DNA of 50,851 bases, from contig PAZP01000032.1 of NCBI GenBank assembly GCA_002715565.1, positions 1 through 50,851 of the forward strand, written 5' to 3'. Of this stretch, positions 1 to 8,290 are shown in pieces (the first letter of the stretch is position 1; every line of letters starts with the position of its first letter). The notes under the pieces were generated by a model. The model did not search any database, was not told the DNA's origin, and worked only from the letters and a program-made list of their open reading frames with translations. This DNA is from Flavobacteriales bacterium. GTDB taxonomy: Bacteria; Bacteroidota; Bacteroidia; Flavobacteriales; BACL11. Position numbers and translations under genes: made by a program.

Positions 1-582
1 GATTTATATAATTTAATAATTGAAAAAATTCCTAGATCAAGGTTTTCTGATGATGCATCTGTTAAATTAGGTGAATATTTTTATGCAAGAGGGCTTTACT
101 CCCAAGCATGTAGAAGTTTATCACAATTTCCTAGAAAACATCCTCGCTATCATGATATGCAAAGAGTAATAGATTTATTGGTTACTTCATTCCAAGCTGT
201 TGGTCAAAATGATTCTGCTAAATATTATCTTAGCATATACCAGGGTATGTTTCCTTATTTGGATGTGGAAAAATATGGTATTAATACTTCCAATTTGAAT
301 CCACCGAGTACCCAAAAACAGATGTTTAGCAATAAACGGTCTCCTTACGTAGTTCAAATAGGAGCTTTCAGTAGCCTAAAAAATGCCAATAGGTTAAAAC
401 TACAAGCGAACCAAATAGGTCATAAAGTTGAAATTGTGCAAATAGAGACAAAGGACAGAACTTTAAATGCTGTAAGGGTTATAAGATATAATTCTAAAAC
501 CGCTGCTGAAAAAGTTGGTCAAAATATTAAAAGAAAATTAGGTGTCGACTACAGAGTCTTATATCGTCCAATTGATGGATGA
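1..582 (+). CDS. SPOR-domain protein, C-terminal part (5' end outside window)
   Basis: The reading frame is open from the first base, so the annotated methionine at 157 is internal and the gene begins before the window. The C-terminal 80 or so residues (from about base 340) form a SPOR domain, starting SPYVVQIGAFSSLKNA and ending VDYRVLYRP, the fold that binds denuded peptidoglycan at division sites. The part before it is helical with TPR-like character (AKYYLSIYQ, YARGLYSQACRSL), as in YbgF/CpoB-like envelope proteins. It most likely acts in the periplasm. It ends 6 nt before a tRNA-Sec gene. The SPOR assignment is firm; the role of the protein is inferred. Confidence 0.85.
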   Translation, partial: DLYNLIIEKIPRSRFSDDASVKLGEYFYARGLYSQACRSLSQFPRKHPRYHDMQRVIDLLVTSFQAVGQNDSAKYYLSIYQGMFPYLDVEKYGINTSNLNPPSTQKQMFSNKRSPYVVQIGAFSSLKNANRLKLQANQIGHKVEIVQIETKDRTLNAVRVIRYNSKTAAEKVGQNIKRKLGVDYRVLYRPIDG

Positions 583-588
583 AAATTT

Positions 589-681
589 GGGAATGATTGA
601 GTTGCTGGTGCTCTCCACGGCCTTCAAAGCCGTTGTCTGTAGTAAAACTGCAGAGCTGGGTTCGATTCCCAGGCGTTCCCG
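589..681 (+). tRNA. selC: tRNA-Sec (anticodon TCA)
   Basis: A long tRNA with a large variable arm. The acceptor stem pairs GGGAATG with CGTTCCC. The anticodon arm is CGGC-CTTCAAA-GCCG, giving anticodon TCA, which reads UGA. The variable arm is a 7-bp hairpin (TCTGTAG with CTGCAGA around TAAAA). The T arm is CTGGG-TTCGATT-CCCAG. The anticodon loop CTTCAAA is the same as in the E. coli selenocysteine tRNA, and the variable arm and the extended acceptor/T stack (one A-G mismatch at the eighth pair) fit the family. The D stem is only clear for four pairs. No CCA is encoded (GCAT follows the stem). No other selenium genes are in the window. Confidence 0.88.
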
Positions 682-690
682 CATAAAATT

Positions 691-1032
691 CGTTCAAAAG
701 GTTATTCAGGATACACTTTTAAAAAGCTTGTATCGTTGTGGTTGAACATGTTTACTAATTTTTCTATTGTTCCATTAAGAATATCTACAGTTTTAGGCAC
801 AATCTTATCATTTGGTGGATTTTTATTTGCTCTAGCTATTCTTATTGAAAAATTTCTTAATCCTGAAGTCCCTCAAGGCTATGCCTCTTTAGTAATTATC
901 TTTATAATATTCTCTGGTGTTCAATTAATTTTCATAGGCTTGATTGGGGAGTATGTAGGAAGACTTTTTATTTCAAATAATAAGCATCCTCAATTTTTTA
1001 TCACTAAGAAATACGAGAATAATGAAACATAA
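691..1032 (+). pseudogene. 3' remnant of a polyprenol-phosphate glycosyltransferase (GT2, ArnC/DPM1-like)
   Basis: Only the membrane-anchoring end of a GT2 polyprenol-phosphate sugar transferase is present. Family-like sequence starts upstream of the TTG at 736: SGYTFKKLVSLWLNMFTNFS is the juxtamembrane segment of this family and is encoded from about base 706. Two membrane helices follow (ISTVLGTILSFGGFLFAL and SLVIIFIIFSGVQLIFIGLI), then the usual GEYVGRLF and a short polar tail. The catalytic domain of roughly 230 residues that should precede it is absent, and the frame runs into the tRNA-Sec gene. A short product from TTG 736 or ATG 748 is possible but could not be a transferase. It overlaps the next gene by 11 nt, the usual arrangement for an intact GT2-methyltransferase pair. 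Confidence 0.8.
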
Positions 1033-1759
1033 TATTCACCATGAATATGAAAAGAACCATTGGTGGTTTAAAAGCAGAAGAATGGTGATGAAACATGCTC
1101 TAATGAAGATAAAGTCATTAGAAGATAAACAATTATTAGAAGTAGGATGTGGCACTGGAGGTAATTTAAAATATTTATTTAAGGATATAAGACACAAACA
1201 TGGTATTGAAATTGATGAAGACGCTTTAAAGTATGCAAAAAAAACGTGCAAAAATTCTAATATATTTTGGGGTGATGCTAATTTTTTAGATGAAATTAAA
1301 ATAAAATTTGATATTATCGCTTTTTTAGATGTTCTTTATCATGAAAATATTATAAATGTTGAAACCGTTCTAAAAAAAGCATATGGGAAATTGAATGATA
1401 ATGGTTTTCTGATTCTAACTGAACCAGCATTTGAGGTATTAATTGGAGATCATTCTCGAACAGTTAAAGCAAAAAGAAGATTTAGAAGAGATCAATTAGA
1501 AAAAAAATTAAATAAAGCCGGATTTAATATAGTTAAATTTTCAAGATATTGGGGTTATTTAACTTTTGTGATATTACTTTTTAAAAGAAGATTACTTGAA
1601 AAAATATTACCATTTTCTCTAAGTAATGAGGGGACAGACATAATTCATATTCCTTTTATTAATAAGTTTTTATTTTGGATCACTAAAGTTGAGATGCTTC
1701 TATTAAGATTATTAAATCTTCCTTTTGGTAATTCAATATTAATTATTGTTCAAAAGTAG
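1022..1759 (+). CDS. class I SAM-dependent methyltransferase (UbiG/type 11-like)
   Basis: A 245-residue methyltransferase. The SAM-binding motif I is LLEVGCGTGGNLKYL (residues 38-52), followed by the acidic motif II in HGIEIDEDAL and by DIIAFLDVLYHE. The N-terminal NHWWFKSRR (12-20) is typical of the methyltransferases found next to polyprenol-phosphate GT2 genes. It starts inside the end of the GT2 remnant (11-nt overlap), so the pair was translationally coupled before the GT2 gene was broken. The substrate is not known; a lipid-linked sugar or polyprenol intermediate is a reasonable guess. The same frame stays open for 45 codons beyond its TAG. Confidence 0.82.
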   Translation: MKHNIHHEYEKNHWWFKSRRMVMKHALMKIKSLEDKQLLEVGCGTGGNLKYLFKDIRHKHGIEIDEDALKYAKKTCKNSNIFWGDANFLDEIKIKFDIIAFLDVLYHENIINVETVLKKAYGKLNDNGFLILTEPAFEVLIGDHSRTVKAKRRFRRDQLEKKLNKAGFNIVKFSRYWGYLTFVILLFKRRLLEKILPFSLSNEGTDIIHIPFINKFLFWITKVEMLLLRLLNLPFGNSILIIVQK

Positions 1760-1959: not shown

Positions 1960-2880
1960 ATGAAAAATATAATTTTAAAATTAATTCTGTTGATTTTTAC
2001 TATTGAGGGTCTTAGCGCTCTTCATGGAAAAATTGTTTTCTACGACGGAACTTATGTTGTTGGCAAAGTAACTAAAGTAGATGAGGCATCAGTCTATATT
2101 GTACCAATTGGACTGGATACTCCTGAAGGTGTTCTTGTTGGCAATATCGATTCGTTAAGAATGGAAAATGGTATGGTTCCCGTTGTAAATAGTGCTGTAA
2201 AATACTTTTATCAAAATGGCGAATTCCTTGCAAATGATTCTGACTGGATGGATGAATATGATGATTTTAAATATGACGATTATGCTTTTATTCAGGAGGA
2301 ATATAAATATGAAGAAACAAAAAGAATTAACACAGATTATTGGTCAATCTCTGCATTTGGTGCATATCCTGCAATAAAGTTTAGTTCGTTAGTTGATTCT
2401 ATGAAAATTACTAAGTTAGCTCCAAATTTTGGAGTAGGCATGCAATCTCCGTTTTACCCCATAGGGGCATTAGACTTTTCTGGCGGTTTTAGGTTTATGA
2501 CCTTTGGAATTATTGAGCATCCTGAAATGGGTGATATAGATGCATTACAATTTGCTGGATTTATAAGCACAGATCTAAAACCAGTTCTTTATTTTTTACC
2601 GAAAGATATTCATCTATGCGTTGACTTTGGCTTTAGCTATAGCATGGGTCTTAAAGTTGAACCAAAATCAAGTCAATATGAGGGCGATCCAACATATGGA
2701 GGAGTTGGTATTTCATCGGGATTAAATATTGATTATCATTTGGAAGAATTACCAATTGCATTACGCTTTTTTGCAAGAAGTACTATTGTTCCTCAAGGTA
2801 TTCCATTTCCTGATGAGAAGACTGGTTTTGTAAATTTTGGTGCTAACATAATTATTGCACTTAAAAGACATCACGATTAG
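1960..2880 (+). CDS. exported protein of unknown function, probable outer-membrane beta-barrel
   Basis: 306 residues, not recognised as a named family. The first 20 residues are a signal peptide (KNIILKLILLIFTIEGLSA, probable cleavage after A20). The following segment (HGKIVFYDGTYVVGKVTKV) resembles the small beta modules seen in exported FCB proteins. An acidic linker (DWMDEYDDFKYDDYAF) leads into a C-terminal half of alternating aromatic and glycine strands (WSISAFGAYPAIKF, ALDFSGGFRFMTFG, LPIALRFFARSTIV), which suggests a beta-barrel. It is separated from the methyltransferase by 200 nt and is convergent with the antiterminator gene with only 4 nt between the stops. The export call is solid; the barrel is inference. 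Confidence 0.65.
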   Translation: MKNIILKLILLIFTIEGLSALHGKIVFYDGTYVVGKVTKVDEASVYIVPIGLDTPEGVLVGNIDSLRMENGMVPVVNSAVKYFYQNGEFLANDSDWMDEYDDFKYDDYAFIQEEYKYEETKRINTDYWSISAFGAYPAIKFSSLVDSMKITKLAPNFGVGMQSPFYPIGALDFSGGFRFMTFGIIEHPEMGDIDALQFAGFISTDLKPVLYFLPKDIHLCVDFGFSYSMGLKVEPKSSQYEGDPTYGGVGISSGLNIDYHLEELPIALRFFARSTIVPQGIPFPDEKTGFVNFGANIIIALKRHHD

Positions 2881-2884
2881 TATT

Positions 2885-3403
2885 TTATTTTATGTTGTCA
2901 ATCAATTTCAAATAACCTTGGTCTATCTTTACTGATAAACACTGTTGTATTGCATCGATGCGCATTACCAACCGGTTCTGGTTCTCAATGCTTAAAACCT
3001 CACCAACTAAACCTTTAAGTGGGCCATGTTCTACAATAACGGGATTTCCTTTCAGAAAATAATTTTCTGCTCTTGGTTCGAACCCCCCTTCAACCATTTT
3101 ATTTATTGCATCTAACTCTTTATCACTTACAAGAGCAATTTTTTCCCCAAATTTCACTATTCTTACTACACCATTGGTTTTAGATATTTGTATGGAGTGC
3201 TTTGGATCAGTTTTTATAAATAAGTACGATCGAAAAAGAGGAAACTCAACCCATTTTTTGCGATCACTCCACTTTCTCCTTTTTCGAAGTAAAGGTAAAT
3301 ATACTTCAAATTTATTTTTTAAGAGTTCGTCTCTTACAACTTTTTCATGTTTTGGTTTGGTATAGACAACAATCCATTTTGTACTATTTACTTTATATTT
3401 CAA
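2885..3403 (-). CDS. NusG/RfaH/UpxY-family transcription antiterminator
   Basis: 172 residues with a NusG N-terminal (NGN) domain at about 8-110 (TKWIVVYTKPKHEKVVRDEL, then FPLFRSYLFIK and TNGVVRIVKFG) and a KOW domain at about 118-150 (KGNPVIVEHGPLKGLVGEVL). Length and sequence match specialised NusG paralogues such as UpxY, LoaP and RfaH, which load on RNA polymerase at a leader element and allow transcription through long polysaccharide operons. It is the only minus-strand gene in the window and is not the first gene of the operon, as UpxY usually is. Its likely client is the operon of at least 46 kb starting at 4649, whose leader carries a stem-loop. The target is inferred. Confidence 0.88.
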   Translation of the reverse strand: MKYKVNSTKWIVVYTKPKHEKVVRDELLKNKFEVYLPLLRKRRKWSDRKKWVEFPLFRSYLFIKTDPKHSIQISKTNGVVRIVKFGEKIALVSDKELDAINKMVEGGFEPRAENYFLKGNPVIVEHGPLKGLVGEVLSIENQNRLVMRIDAIQQCLSVKIDQGYLKLIDNIK

Positions 3404-3430
3404 AATATTTTTCAGGCCATTTCTTTTTTA

Positions 3431-3510
3431 AAAATTATGTATTAAAATTATGTAATGTTTGTTAATGTTTACTAAATTAGTTGATAAAGTAATAATAAAT
3501 GGTTGATAAA
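3431..3510. promoter_or_regulatory. divergent promoter region with three pairs of direct repeats
   Basis: The 115-nt divergent gap between the antiterminator and the HTH-ATPase-STAS gene holds three close direct repeats: AAAATTATGTA at 3431 and 3444, TAATGTTT at 3453 and 3463, and GTTGATAAA at 3480 and 3502. Spacings of 10 and 22 nt are near whole helical turns, which would suit a dimeric regulator binding one face. The winged-helix protein encoded next door is the obvious candidate. The region is very A+T-rich, so chance repeats cannot be excluded. Confidence 0.35.
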
Positions 3511-3518
3511 AATATCCT

Positions 3519-4529
3519 TTGAATTCATCAAGTCAAATAAAAAAATTTATTTTAGATAATCTATCTAGTCACCGTAAGGATATAATATATACAGCGATTC
3601 AAAGATTTGGAGTTTCGCGCCAAGCAATACTGAAACATATGCATACTCTTATTAGTGAAAATAAGGTAATTGCTCATGGAAAAACAAGAGATCGGTTTTA
3701 TGAACTCAGGACTCAACTTAGTTTCAACAAGACAATCAAGGTGGATCATAACTTCTCATGCTCTAAAACTATAAAAAAATATGTTTTACCTCACCTAAAC
3801 AAACTTCCTGATAATGTAGCTCAAATTGTAAAATTTTCTATGGCTGCTCTTTTACAAAATATTATAGATCACTCAAATTCAGATCAATTGTATTTTAAAT
3901 TATATTTCAATCATGACTGTTTCCATGCAATTTTAAGAGATAATGGCAAAGGCCTTTTTAGTCACATTAGTTCAACTAATAATCTTGGAAGTTTAAATAA
4001 CGCTGCAATTGAATTGGTAAAAGGTGGAGTAACTACAGATAAGGAAAATCACTCCGGATATGAATTGAACGCTGTAATGCATCTTTTTGATTCATTTAAA
4101 ATTGAATCTAATGGTATGTATTTGGATTATAATCATATTGATCAAAGTTACATTTCAGGAGAATCAGCTCAATTACAGGGAACCCGCATGCATTTCAAAA
4201 TCAGTCCTTTCTCAAAAAGGACATGTCATGAAATTTTTAAAAAAATATTTGATGTTGAAAATAAAACACTCTCAATTCCAATAAATCTTCTAGCAATTTC
4301 TGATAGTGATCAAATTAACTCCAGAGATCAGGCAAGAGAAATATTGAACAATATTTCAGGTAGTAAAAAAATCAAATTCGACTTTAAGAGTGTAAATCTA
4401 ATTAGTCCGGCATTTGCAGATGAATTGATAAGGAAAATTAAAAATACCGATCCTAATATTGAAATTCAATGGATTAATTCAAATGAGACAATTGATATGA
4501 TGATGTCTCATTTTCTGAAAAGATTATAA
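3519..4529 (+). CDS. winged-helix / GHKL ATPase / STAS-like (DUF4325-type) regulator
   Basis: 336 residues in three parts. Residues 1-63 are a winged helix (YTAIQRFGVSRQAILKHMHT, wing around KVIAHGKTRDRFYEL). Residues about 95-230 are a GHKL-type ATP-binding fold with N box LLQNIIDHSN (111-120), G1 box DNGKG (141-145) and G2-like HSGYELNAV (178-186); there is no phospho-accepting histidine domain. Residues about 250-336 are STAS-like (KIKFDFKSVNLISPAFADEL), matching the DUF4325 pattern. The parts resemble an anti-sigma kinase and its STAS antagonist in one chain with a DNA-binding head. The start is TTG at 3519; the ATG at 3499 is out of frame. A role in controlling the flanking genes is inference from position. 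Confidence 0.8.
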   Translation: MNSSSQIKKFILDNLSSHRKDIIYTAIQRFGVSRQAILKHMHTLISENKVIAHGKTRDRFYELRTQLSFNKTIKVDHNFSCSKTIKKYVLPHLNKLPDNVAQIVKFSMAALLQNIIDHSNSDQLYFKLYFNHDCFHAILRDNGKGLFSHISSTNNLGSLNNAAIELVKGGVTTDKENHSGYELNAVMHLFDSFKIESNGMYLDYNHIDQSYISGESAQLQGTRMHFKISPFSKRTCHEIFKKIFDVENKTLSIPINLLAISDSDQINSRDQAREILNNISGSKKIKFDFKSVNLISPAFADELIRKIKNTDPNIEIQWINSNETIDMMMSHFLKRL

Positions 4530-4562
4530 AAAGTAATCTTTAGAAAAATGTTGAAACTTTTC

Positions 4563-4614
4563 AGTACGAAATGGGACTGACAAGGCGAAGCTTTATCCTA
4601 GTCAGATTAGTACT
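4563..4614 (+). promoter_or_regulatory. leader stem-loop, candidate antiterminator recruitment site
   Basis: The 119-nt leader before the first operon gene contains nested inverted repeats: outer AGTAC (4563-4567) with GTACT (4610-4614), middle CTGAC (4577-4581) with GTCAG (4601-4605), and inner AGG (4583-4585) with CCT (4597-4599). The apical loop is CGAAGCTTTAT. No T tract follows, so it is not an ordinary intrinsic terminator. GGCGAAGC at 4584-4591 loosely resembles the start of the RfaH ops element (GGCGGTAGC). A NusG-like factor encoded 1.2 kb away makes this a plausible loading site. The hairpin is visible; the function is inferred. Confidence 0.4.
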
Positions 4615-4648
4615 TAAAATTATAAAATAAATGGAATAAAAATTAAAA

Positions 4649-5440
4649 ATGATTGATTTTCATAATCATGTCCTACCAAATGTAGATGATGGTTCAAAAT
4701 CTTTGAAAATGTCTCTTAATATGTTGAAATCTGCAGCTGCTCAGGGGATTACAGATGTTATAAATACTGTCCATTACTTTCATCCAAAAGTTAAGGATGG
4801 CGAGATAACGCTCAATAATATTCTAGAAAAAACTGGTTTGTTACAAAATGAAATTGACAAACATTCAATTCCAATCAAAATACACTGCGGCTCTGAAATA
4901 TTTTTTCGACCAAATCTTGTAGAACTAAAGAATGATCCATTAGCAACCTTTTTTCATGGTAAATACATGCTTATCGAATTTGATCTATTTCAAATACCTA
5001 GTACATATAAACAAGAATTATTTAATCTTAAAATGGAAGGTATCACTCCAATAATTGCTCATCCAGAAAGGTATCAAGCTATACATAGAAACATCAATAT
5101 TATTCCAAATTTATTAGAGGCAGGCTGTATAATTCAGTTAGATGCGGGTAGTTTATTAGGCCATTTTGGTTCAAAGGTCAAATTAATAGCAGATAGAATT
5201 ATTAAAAATAGGTGGTGCCAAATAATTGGTTCTGATTCCCACAATGATCGTCGAAGAAACTTTTGCCTTAATGCAGCAATTGATTTGATCAATAATCGTA
5301 TTGATCCAAAACAATTGGTCATAGAAAATCCAAGAAAAGTATTAAATGGTGAAGAGATATTAGTTGATGTCCATTATGAAGAAATTAAAGAAAAGCAGGG
5401 AATTATTTATCAGATAAAAAGTAAAATGGGTTTAAAATAA
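4649..5440 (+). CDS. CpsB/Wzb-type PHP-fold tyrosine-protein phosphatase
   Basis: 263 residues of the PHP metal-dependent phosphatase family that dephosphorylates the tyrosine-rich tail of capsule copolymerase kinases. Metal ligands are visible at H5 and H7 (MIDFHNHVLPNVDDG), D13/D14, E83 in GSEIFF, H138 (AHPERYQ), and D196/H198 (GSDSHND). Full length for the family. It is the first gene of the operon, 34 nt after the leader hairpin, and two genes before the matching Wzc-type kinase. Expected to act in the cytoplasm on that kinase and so to gate chain length and export. Confidence 0.92.
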   Translation: MIDFHNHVLPNVDDGSKSLKMSLNMLKSAAAQGITDVINTVHYFHPKVKDGEITLNNILEKTGLLQNEIDKHSIPIKIHCGSEIFFRPNLVELKNDPLATFFHGKYMLIEFDLFQIPSTYKQELFNLKMEGITPIIAHPERYQAIHRNINIIPNLLEAGCIIQLDAGSLLGHFGSKVKLIADRIIKNRWCQIIGSDSHNDRRRNFCLNAAIDLINNRIDPKQLVIENPRKVLNGEEILVDVHYEEIKEKQGIIYQIKSKMGLK

Positions 5441-5443
5441 TAA

Positions 5444-5944
5444 ATGTTATTTCAAAGAAAAATAAGTTTAACTGTATTGCTTTGTTCTATTCATTTCATT
5501 TTCTGTCAGGATTTGGTTGAAAACAATAATATCAGCGATTATCAAATTTCAAGCGAGAAATATATTACCTCTCAAAATGGAAGCATATTAATGCATGTCA
5601 ACATATGGGGCAAAGTAGTACAACCAGGCAGGAAGTTGGTCTATGACGGTATTGACATGGCAACACTTTTATCAATTGTAGGAGGGCCAGGTTCAGGTGC
5701 AAACATGAAAAAGGTCAGATTGTATAGAGAAGTTGCTGACGAAAACGGACAATTGGTCTATGAAATTAATTTAGATAATTTTATAAGGAGTGGTGATAGA
5801 TCAGACTTCATTAAAATTAAGCCAAATGATACCATCCTAATTCCTCAAACTGTGACCTCATTGTTATTAAATCAGGTAGGAACCCTTAATACCTTGTTGT
5901 CATTCTTAAACTTTTATTTAATTATAAACTCTCAGTTTAACTAG
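5444..5944 (+). CDS. short SLBB-domain polysaccharide export protein
   Basis: 166 residues with a signal peptide (KISLTVLLCSIHFIFC; a cysteine at 21 could be lipid-modified, but the lipobox is poor) and one SLBB domain at about 50-135 (VNIWGKVVQPGRKLVYDG, IKPNDTILIP). The C-terminal LLSFLNFYLIIN is hydrophobic. Wza-type export proteins normally begin with a poly-export domain; it is missing here, so this is either an accessory SLBB protein or half of a split Wza, with the other half elsewhere. Placed 3 nt after cpsB and 21 nt before the Wzc gene, as in Wza-Wzc pairs. Confidence 0.82.
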   Translation: MLFQRKISLTVLLCSIHFIFCQDLVENNNISDYQISSEKYITSQNGSILMHVNIWGKVVQPGRKLVYDGIDMATLLSIVGGPGSGANMKKVRLYREVADENGQLVYEINLDNFIRSGDRSDFIKIKPNDTILIPQTVTSLLLNQVGTLNTLLSFLNFYLIINSQFN

Positions 5945-5965
5945 TTAATTGTAAATAACAATACT

Positions 5966-8290
5966 TTGAATAATAAAGAGACAAACACATTTGAAAAGCA
6001 GTTTACTGTGATGGAGTTAATGGGAATACTTCGTTTTCACTATAAATTGATTTTAACGATTACTTTGTTTGGCATTATGATTTTTACTTATAGAACTTAC
6101 ACAATTCACCCAGTATACAGATCTACAAGCTCAATAATTATTAAGGAAAAGCCAGGTACATCTATGATAATGCAATATGGTAGTAGAGACCGATCTGATA
6201 TGAGCAACGAAATTGAAGTATTACGATCAAGAAGATTAGCAAAAGATGTTGTGAAACTATTTTGGGACTCTAACCGTCGTAATTCATTGGCCCTTTTCAA
6301 CACGAGAAAGTATTATCCAAGAGGGGAAAAGTATAGGAGAATTTTAAAGGAAATTATGTCATTAGGGATTTATAGTCCTGAGATTGAAAAAGAGGAACAT
6401 TATACTGAGCCATATTCAGATGCCATTGGGGAAAAATTTTCTCAAAATGTTATGAATGGGATATCAATAAAAAGAAGAAATGCAACGGGTGTCCTTGAAA
6501 TTACTTTTCAATCAGTATTTGCAGATGAAGCCAGAAGAATATCTGATGGCATTGCGCAAGTATATAAAAACTTAGAAAAAACTATAGGGAATGAAGATGC
6601 AACTCTGAGAGTGGAGTTCATGGATGATCTTGTTAATCAGCAAGAAGGTAAACTGTTACTTGCAGAGGACAGTTTAAAACAATTTAAAATAGAAAACAGC
6701 TTTTTCAGCAGTGATGGGGAGGCTTCTTCTGTAGCAAGACAGATTTCTGCTCTTGAAAATGACATTTATAATACACGTTCTGAGTTAAACATGAGACGTG
6801 AGAGAATATCTTTTTTGAACTCCAAGTTATCTGCTGAAGAAAAGAATTTTGCTACAAAAATTAGTACTGATATTAATGCCCAGATGATTGTTCTTAGAAA
6901 GGAGATTAACCAACTCGAATCTCAATCAATTCAAAACGCTATGATATATGGTGAGAATCACAGTGCAGTGATAGAAATTCAAAAAAGAGTTTCAATTATG
7001 AAAGAAAAGCTAGATGAGAAAGTGCAACAACTCATTGCTCAAGGGATCACTTCACAAGATCCTCTTGCAGAGAGGCAAAAAATAATTTCTGACATTTTAT
7101 CTTTAGATGCTGAGATATTTGGCTTTTTACAAAAAGAGCAGCAAATAGAAAATTTATTAAGTTTATATCAAAATAAATTGTTAACCCTGCCCGATAAGCA
7201 GCTAAAAATGGCCTCCCTAATGAGGGATGTTAATGTACTTAGTCAAAATTACATGATGTTGAGGCAAAAACTTGAAGAAGCTAAAATTGAATTAGCTTCT
7301 CAGAGTGGCAGAGTCCAGCTTTTGGATTCTGCTCGACGTCCCTCGAGGCCCATATCACCAAATCATAGAAGCGATATTTTACAGGGTCTTATTATTAGTT
7401 TAGCAATTTCATTTGGAATTATTTTTTTAATTGAATTCTTAGATAATTCAATACGTTCCATCAACGATATTGAAAATCTTAAAATGTCAGTATTGGGAGT
7501 TATTCCTGCAATTTCAGGTTCAACAAATGCTGTAATTAACTATAGAGCCAAACTTTTTGGCAAGCAAAAACAAATTTCAAACAAAAATATTACTCGCAGG
7601 CTTATAACGCGGGAAGATCCTCGATCGCCAATTTCTGAAGCATATAGAAGCTTACGCACTAATATGATTTATAATGACGTTGATTTAAAAATAAAATCTA
7701 TTCTTGTTTCAAGTGCAGGACCTGGAGAAGGCAAAACAACTACTGTGGCAAATATGGCGATCACATACGCAAACCTAGGAAAAAAGACATTACTCGTTGA
7801 TACGGATTTGAGAAGGCCAGTAGTTCATAAAATATTTGATCTAAAAAAAGAACCTGGCATCACAAACTTTCTAGCGGGTACTCAAGAAGATTTTTCATCT
7901 CTAATAAAAAGTACAAGTATTGAAAATCTTTTTGTGGTGACATCTGGCGTAATACCTCCAAATCCTTCAGAATTACTGGGTTCCAGTAAAATGGAAAATC
8001 TGATAAATGAACTGGAGAATGAGTGGGATATTATATTATTTGATAGCCCTCCGCTGGTTGCGGTTACAGATGCAACAATGGTCAGCAAGGCAATTGACAA
8101 AATTATAATAGTAGTAAAAATGGGACAAACGGAGAAGAAAGCCTTCGAGCACACAATAAAATCACTTGAAAATGTCCATGCTCCTGTTGCTGGAGTGGTC
8201 CTAAATGCTGTCACGAAATCGAATAGCTATGGATCATACTACTATTACTACCAATACTATAATTATTATGGAAGTGATTCTGATAAATAG
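5966..8290 (+). CDS. wzc: Wzc-type polysaccharide copolymerase with BY-kinase domain
   Basis: 774 residues. The Wzz part starts with a membrane helix at about 28-42, continues through a long periplasmic coiled-coil region (GNVR-like, about 200-450), and ends in a second helix (LQGLIISLAISFGIIFLIEF). The cytoplasmic bacterial tyrosine kinase has Walker A GPGEGKTTT (K590), Walker A' VDTDLRRP (D612, D614) and Walker B LFDSPP (D693). The last 23 residues carry ten tyrosines, the autophosphorylation cluster. Family role: control of chain length and coupling of polymerisation to export in Wzx/Wzy-dependent systems. The start is TTG, in the recurrent local context CTTTGAATAA. Its phosphatase and SLBB partner are immediately upstream. 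Confidence 0.94.
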   Translation: MNNKETNTFEKQFTVMELMGILRFHYKLILTITLFGIMIFTYRTYTIHPVYRSTSSIIIKEKPGTSMIMQYGSRDRSDMSNEIEVLRSRRLAKDVVKLFWDSNRRNSLALFNTRKYYPRGEKYRRILKEIMSLGIYSPEIEKEEHYTEPYSDAIGEKFSQNVMNGISIKRRNATGVLEITFQSVFADEARRISDGIAQVYKNLEKTIGNEDATLRVEFMDDLVNQQEGKLLLAEDSLKQFKIENSFFSSDGEASSVARQISALENDIYNTRSELNMRRERISFLNSKLSAEEKNFATKISTDINAQMIVLRKEINQLESQSIQNAMIYGENHSAVIEIQKRVSIMKEKLDEKVQQLIAQGITSQDPLAERQKIISDILSLDAEIFGFLQKEQQIENLLSLYQNKLLTLPDKQLKMASLMRDVNVLSQNYMMLRQKLEEAKIELASQSGRVQLLDSARRPSRPISPNHRSDILQGLIISLAISFGIIFLIEFLDNSIRSINDIENLKMSVLGVIPAISGSTNAVINYRAKLFGKQKQISNKNITRRLITREDPRSPISEAYRSLRTNMIYNDVDLKIKSILVSSAGPGEGKTTTVANMAITYANLGKKTLLVDTDLRRPVVHKIFDLKKEPGITNFLAGTQEDFSSLIKSTSIENLFVVTSGVIPPNPSELLGSSKMENLINELENEWDIILFDSPPLVAVTDATMVSKAIDKIIIVVKMGQTEKKAFEHTIKSLENVHAPVAGVVLNAVTKSNSYGSYYYYYQYYNYYGSDSDK

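Follow-up and report, generated by a model that had tools for sequence, protein, structure and literature searches.

A tRNA-Sec gene as the left edge of a Marinimicrobia surface-polysaccharide locus, probably exchanged as a replacement-type genomic island

The window (the whole stretch of 50,851 nucleotides analysed here) is a Marinimicrobia surface-polysaccharide locus with the tRNA-Sec gene (selC) as its left edge. We suggest, with a probability of about 0.6, that this locus is a replacement-type flexible genomic island which was exchanged with its left edge at selC, and that a headless glycosyltransferase (GT2) gene lying directly behind the tRNA is the scar of the joint. The boundary is probably real and reflects a known kind of event, island exchange, at a site apparently not described before: a search of the open-licence literature on Marinimicrobia with selenocysteine or genomic islands returned no description of it.

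The tRNA-Sec gene, its left flank and the origin of the contig

selC (589-682, plus strand) was recognised by ARAGORN with the anticodon TCA and matches Rfam RF01852 at 589-680 (62.2 bits, E 2.4e-10), its tRNA-Sec fold lying 3.6 sd below those of shuffled sequences. It is preceded by the 3' part of a TPR/SPOR-domain gene (1-582, plus strand, cut by the contig start; PF05036, E 2.9e-11), whose protein is 93, 89 and 66% identical to those of three Ca. Marinimicrobia assemblies (L033, L034 and L035, respectively). SPOR is conserved to the left of selC: almost all of the ~65 genomes of the Marinimicrobia order in which this could be checked have it there, which agrees with the earlier statement that the tRNA lies in its expected place; the SPOR-selC order is ancient in this group. 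Two further ideas about this segment were rejected: the encoded CCA end is not a mark of recombination, as the presence of GCCA varies across the order without inserts, and a phage origin of 560-1040 is not indicated, as this region had no match in phage records (the junction 30-mer was likewise not found in viral contigs).

The window is contig C32 of G000, a bin of 38 contigs (81% complete) that belongs to another phylum. The MiaB protein of this bin is 45% identical to a Marinimicrobia protein, the corresponding values being 46-47% for relatives from the bin's own family and 68-88% for Marinimicrobia relatives. Since MiaB of the bin is thus unlike Marinimicrobia while the SPOR protein is so close to them, the contig is most likely mis-binned Marinimicrobia DNA, and conclusions for the organism of the bin drawn from the window would for this reason be wrong. 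The SPOR protein was found in none of the 59 other genomes searched (the bin's family and order relatives), and tRNA-Sec scored over the cut-off in only one relative from the bin's family, G033, where the SelB-selC stretch (L002) is located on a contig appearing foreign to its own bin.

The joint behind selC and its counterparts in relatives

The frame 682-1032 (plus strand) is open for 116 codons with no internal stops and represents the C-terminal membrane part of a GT2 enzyme of the ArnC/PgfS type. It matches the NCBIfam models ArnC (NF007986, positions 200-312 of 316, E 1e-17) and PgfS (NF047588, positions 196-304 of 308), so the C-terminal ~111 residues are like those of these polyprenyl-phosphate glycosyltransferases, whereas the first ~199 model positions, which include the catalytic domain and make up some 63% of the enzyme, are missing. 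Alignment to intact homologues from the order (306-326 aa) gave the same picture, the first ~196 residues being absent. In the nearest homologue, PF00535 occupies residues 6-132; a Pfam search of the 682-1032 frame found neither PF00535 nor any other catalytic domain.

The first codon with GT2 homology (CAT, His; 682-684) straddles the tRNA 3' end and marks the junction, as judged from the ArnC/PgfS matches, the alignment and blastn. When the frame was extended by 12 codons back into the tRNA, the start of the ArnC match remained at codon 682-684 and that of the PgfS match moved only two residues earlier. The preliminary description had a GT2 without its catalytic domain abutting tRNA-Sec, and the cut indeed falls within one codon of the tRNA 3' end; it was also right that the GT2 sequence is in frame, but it placed the start at about 706 because only the best-conserved part had been noticed, while the homology begins at about 682. 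The plausible GT2 starts are internal (TTG 736 or ATG 748), and for this reason we regard the remnant as a probable pseudogene. As the closest intact homologue in the order is only ~41% identical, the lost 5' DNA could not be read off. A second copy of the fragment was not found in the bin, and since the bin is that of a different organism, this search is empty as a test for the catalytic half.

A SAM-dependent methyltransferase gene (1022-1759, plus strand; PF08242, E 1.3e-10) overlaps the GT2 stop codon. Homology to G064, a relative with an insert-free site, resumes at ~1886 (blastn, 76%) and leads into the gene of an uncharacterised protein, for which we use the working label HGK (1960-2880, plus strand), the first gene of the conserved capsule locus. 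HGK of the window is 55% identical to that of G064, 53% to that of G063 and 46% to that of G060. It is followed at 2885-8290 by an UpxY/NusG-like gene (minus strand), a DUF4325 regulator, CpsB/CapC, an SLBB-type export protein and a Wzz/BY-kinase (assigned by Pfam), in the order found by tblastn in G064, G073 and G074. The remainder of the glycan locus (8364-50851, plus strand) includes NeuB-like, ABC transporter, GT2/GT1 and sulfotransferase genes and, where the contig ends, a Wzi-like gene; the exchange has its right edge outside the window.

Many members of the order have a conserved gene run (clusters c3-c0-c1-c2) after selC, often with extra genes between. In the family of the window, selC is followed by variable surface-glycan DNA or, in the clean sites, by a Ni-SOD gene (PF09055) and then by the capsule locus HGK-UpxY-DUF4325-CpsB-SLBB-Wzz. 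The comparison of the SPOR-selC neighbourhood that had been proposed as a check revealed such sites without an insert, full or partial, in L055, L056, L057, L058 and L063. In three relatives, G060, G061 and G062, 7-19 kb of differing glycan genes lie between selC and Ni-SOD, and tblastn found in them neither UpxY nor DUF4325, both of which are present in the window. In the window itself the Ni-SOD gene is gone, and the local addition is confined to the truncated GT2 and the methyltransferase (683-~1885), which stand in its place. The earlier suggestion that the polysaccharide region had joined the chromosome here is therefore not upheld: because the capsule locus is already present in relatives without the insert, it was exchanged rather than newly inserted.

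Conflict between the two sides of selC

Up to selC, the window has ~89% DNA identity to its nearest relatives, no genome of its own species having been found. Homology to G060 (blastn) covers the 588 bases before selC and the gene itself and stops at the junction 682-684; identity within the flank declines from 93% (1-300) to 83% (301-579), a drop that is seen in other pairs too. The SPOR proteins of the window and G060, the window and G061, and G060 and G061 are 92.7, 89.1 and 89.5% identical, respectively, and in the SPOR tree these three form a clade with support of 100/100. Behind selC the relations are different: the window is 46.0/44.7% identical to G060/G061 in HGK, 51.5/50.6% in CpsB and 43.8/43.8% in Wzz, while G060 and G061 are 92.0, 88.3 and 90.0% identical to each other. 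For the concatenated capsule genes (HGK, CpsB, the SLBB-type export protein and Wzz), the clade of the window with G060 and G061 is rejected (p-AU 9.6e-76), and the capsule tree is also compatible with the window being the sister of G060, G061 and G062 together.

A separate, independent two-sided swap, again with its left edge at selC, is seen between G060 and G061: their DNA is 88% identical up to selC, then ~16-18 kb of largely unrelated glycan genes follow, and identity returns to 86% just before HGK. These are two public assemblies other than that of the window, so the left edge at selC does not rest on the window alone. Ni-SOD of G060 and G061 is only 61% identical while the genes on either side are ~90% identical, which argues that Ni-SOD was probably swapped together with the glycan insert. 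Across the related lineages the island has the same location, with SPOR-selC on the left and HGK-CpsB-Wzz on the right, and the differing gene sets behind selC (in the window, G060, G061 and G062) have an equivalent surface-glycan function. With the DNA homology ending at selC, the trees conflicting across it and G060/G061 sharing the edge, the proposal that selC is a recombination boundary holds.

We suppose that an ancestor of the window exchanged the block to the right of selC, from HGK to Wzz at least and probably beyond, for its counterpart in a more distantly related Marinimicrobia lineage. Homology on the left would have been provided by the conserved segment SPOR-selC, the crossover probably lying inside selC or just upstream of it. 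Either in the incoming allele or in a second event, a GT2-methyltransferase fragment would have taken the place of the Ni-SOD gene and of the bases behind the tRNA and been fused directly to the 3' end of selC, whereby the GT2 would have lost its first ~200 residues and become a pseudogene. The truncation, the conserved surroundings, the insert-free sites, the tree conflict across selC and the swap in G060/G061 are shown directly; that homologous recombination drove the exchange, that the crossover fell within selC and in which order the events took place is what we infer from them, and homologous recombination alone leaves the cut of GT2 within one codon of the tRNA end unexplained.

The sequence of selC itself bears on the position of the crossover. 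Its 5' half resembles G060/G061, while the variable arm and the 3' half resemble G063/G064: the window differs from G060 by one base in the 5' half and five in the 3' half, and from G063 by two and one, respectively. Such a mosaic suggests a crossover inside the gene. In control pairs with SPOR identity of at least 85%, the selC 3' halves mostly have 0-1 differences, some pairs have 4-5, and L160 has 20; the variable arm is only a short stretch, and differences as large are at times seen in pairs with a comparable SPOR identity. It is possible, if on balance doubtful, that tRNA-Sec itself is the crossover point at which Marinimicrobia lineages swap whole polysaccharide loci within a short, near-invariant gene, the resulting tRNA combining the 5' half of the recipient with the 3' half of the donor. 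With the mosaic tRNA it becomes testable whether recombination between distant lineages can make do with very short conserved genes as its arms.

Other explanations and known islands

The preliminary description rightly asked for a misassembly at the tRNA to be excluded. The contig starts only 588 bases before tRNA-Sec and was binned with another phylum, so a chimera at its end would give a similar picture. It would join the SPOR-selC end of one Marinimicrobia genome to the selC-capsule part of another through shared tRNA bases, making the left contig end false; stretches of selC are identical between lineages, and the contig is mis-binned. Moreover, among the selC contigs of the order, 10 break off within ~260 bases after the gene, compared with 2 that begin within ~260 bases before it, so assemblers do fail there; these breaks suggest strain variation right behind selC that disrupts assemblies. 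However, a chimera would not create the GT2 truncation, since its second source would need selC with a headless GT2, unless an intact GT2 contained the tRNA end. In addition, the window selC carries an A (tRNA base 29) that is present in neither candidate parent group, and the independent swap in G060/G061 occurred at the same place. We consider a chimera unlikely, and it would mostly shift the question, because the right-hand source itself would need a headless GT2 directly behind selC.

An integrase-mediated insertion at the selC 3' end, that is, a tRNA-associated island with its integrase and distal repeat decayed or located past the contig end, agrees with the position of the junction and with the use of selC in other genomes of the order, where an insert, PF00589 genes or short 3'-end repeats follow it (see below). 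It is nevertheless improbable: no PF00589 integrase was found on the selC contigs of the window's family, and a scan of the 50 kb of the window revealed none either; a search with the selC 3' end (24 bases, allowing up to 6 mismatches) gave no further copy in the window or in the insert-bearing relatives, the right border lying outside the window; and the capsule locus already occupies the site in relatives without the insert. These searches bear out the earlier notice that neither an integrase nor a second att copy is present in the window, and the preference given to a replacement exchange over a live element. A purely local deletion, in which a complete GT2 behind selC lost its 5' part from the tRNA end and the capsule genes simply evolve fast, would account for the truncation and the lost Ni-SOD without transfer, with the methyltransferase still behind GT2, but it is very improbable, since G060 and G061 share 88-92% identity in HGK, CpsB and Wzz (44-52% with the window), which are thus not fast-evolving, since UpxY and DUF4325 are present in the window but were not found in G060-G062, and since the capsule tree rejects the joint clade.

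A replacement exchange resembles the replacement flexible genomic islands of aquatic prokaryotes, for which exchange via homologous recombination through the flanks was proposed (Lopez-Perez et al. 2014; PMC4033161): the same chromosomal place carries differing gene sets of similar surface-glycan function between conserved flanks, with no recombinase hallmarks at the edges. Unlike those islands, the window belongs to Marinimicrobia and has a tRNA-Sec gene at its left edge, its exchange spans lineages with capsule proteins only ~45-55% identical, and its joint left a decapitated gene. In Pelagibacterales, the O-chain cluster adjoins rRNA genes, or tRNA genes in one genomospecies, which was described as a relocation (PMC11898729); there, too, a hypervariable glycan cluster is bordered by stable-RNA genes, although the phylum and the RNA gene are different. 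The integrase-type selC islands of enterobacteria (PMC6174562) are likewise foreign DNA bounded by the selC 3' end, whereas in the window neither an integrase nor a distal direct repeat was seen within 50 kb, and a conserved capsule locus was exchanged, not an element inserted. In an uncultured marine phylum, the analysis points to tRNA-Sec as a conserved boundary of a hypervariable surface-glycan island. Islands of this kind are thought to affect sensitivity to phages (PMC4033161), and their recovery from long reads has a simple handle in the conserved flank SPOR-selC.

Elsewhere in the order, in L160, an insert of ~0.95 kb separates selC from a second, degenerate copy of the selC 3' end at +947, behind which the original flank continues; the insert has two small ORFs, HigB/HigA-like on our reading, and selC of L160 has 20 differences from close relatives in the 3' half and 0 in the 5' half. 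This is an insertion at selC and serves as a positive control for integration, the mark of which is absent from the window. In L121 and L150, tyrosine integrase genes (PF00589) lie on the minus strand just downstream of selC, so in some Marinimicrobia selC serves as an integration site. Stretches of 13-19 bases from the selC 3' end are repeated exactly within ~100 bases after selC in L170, L151, L056, L118, L171 and L125, and these repeats exceed the lengths obtained with shuffled sequences.
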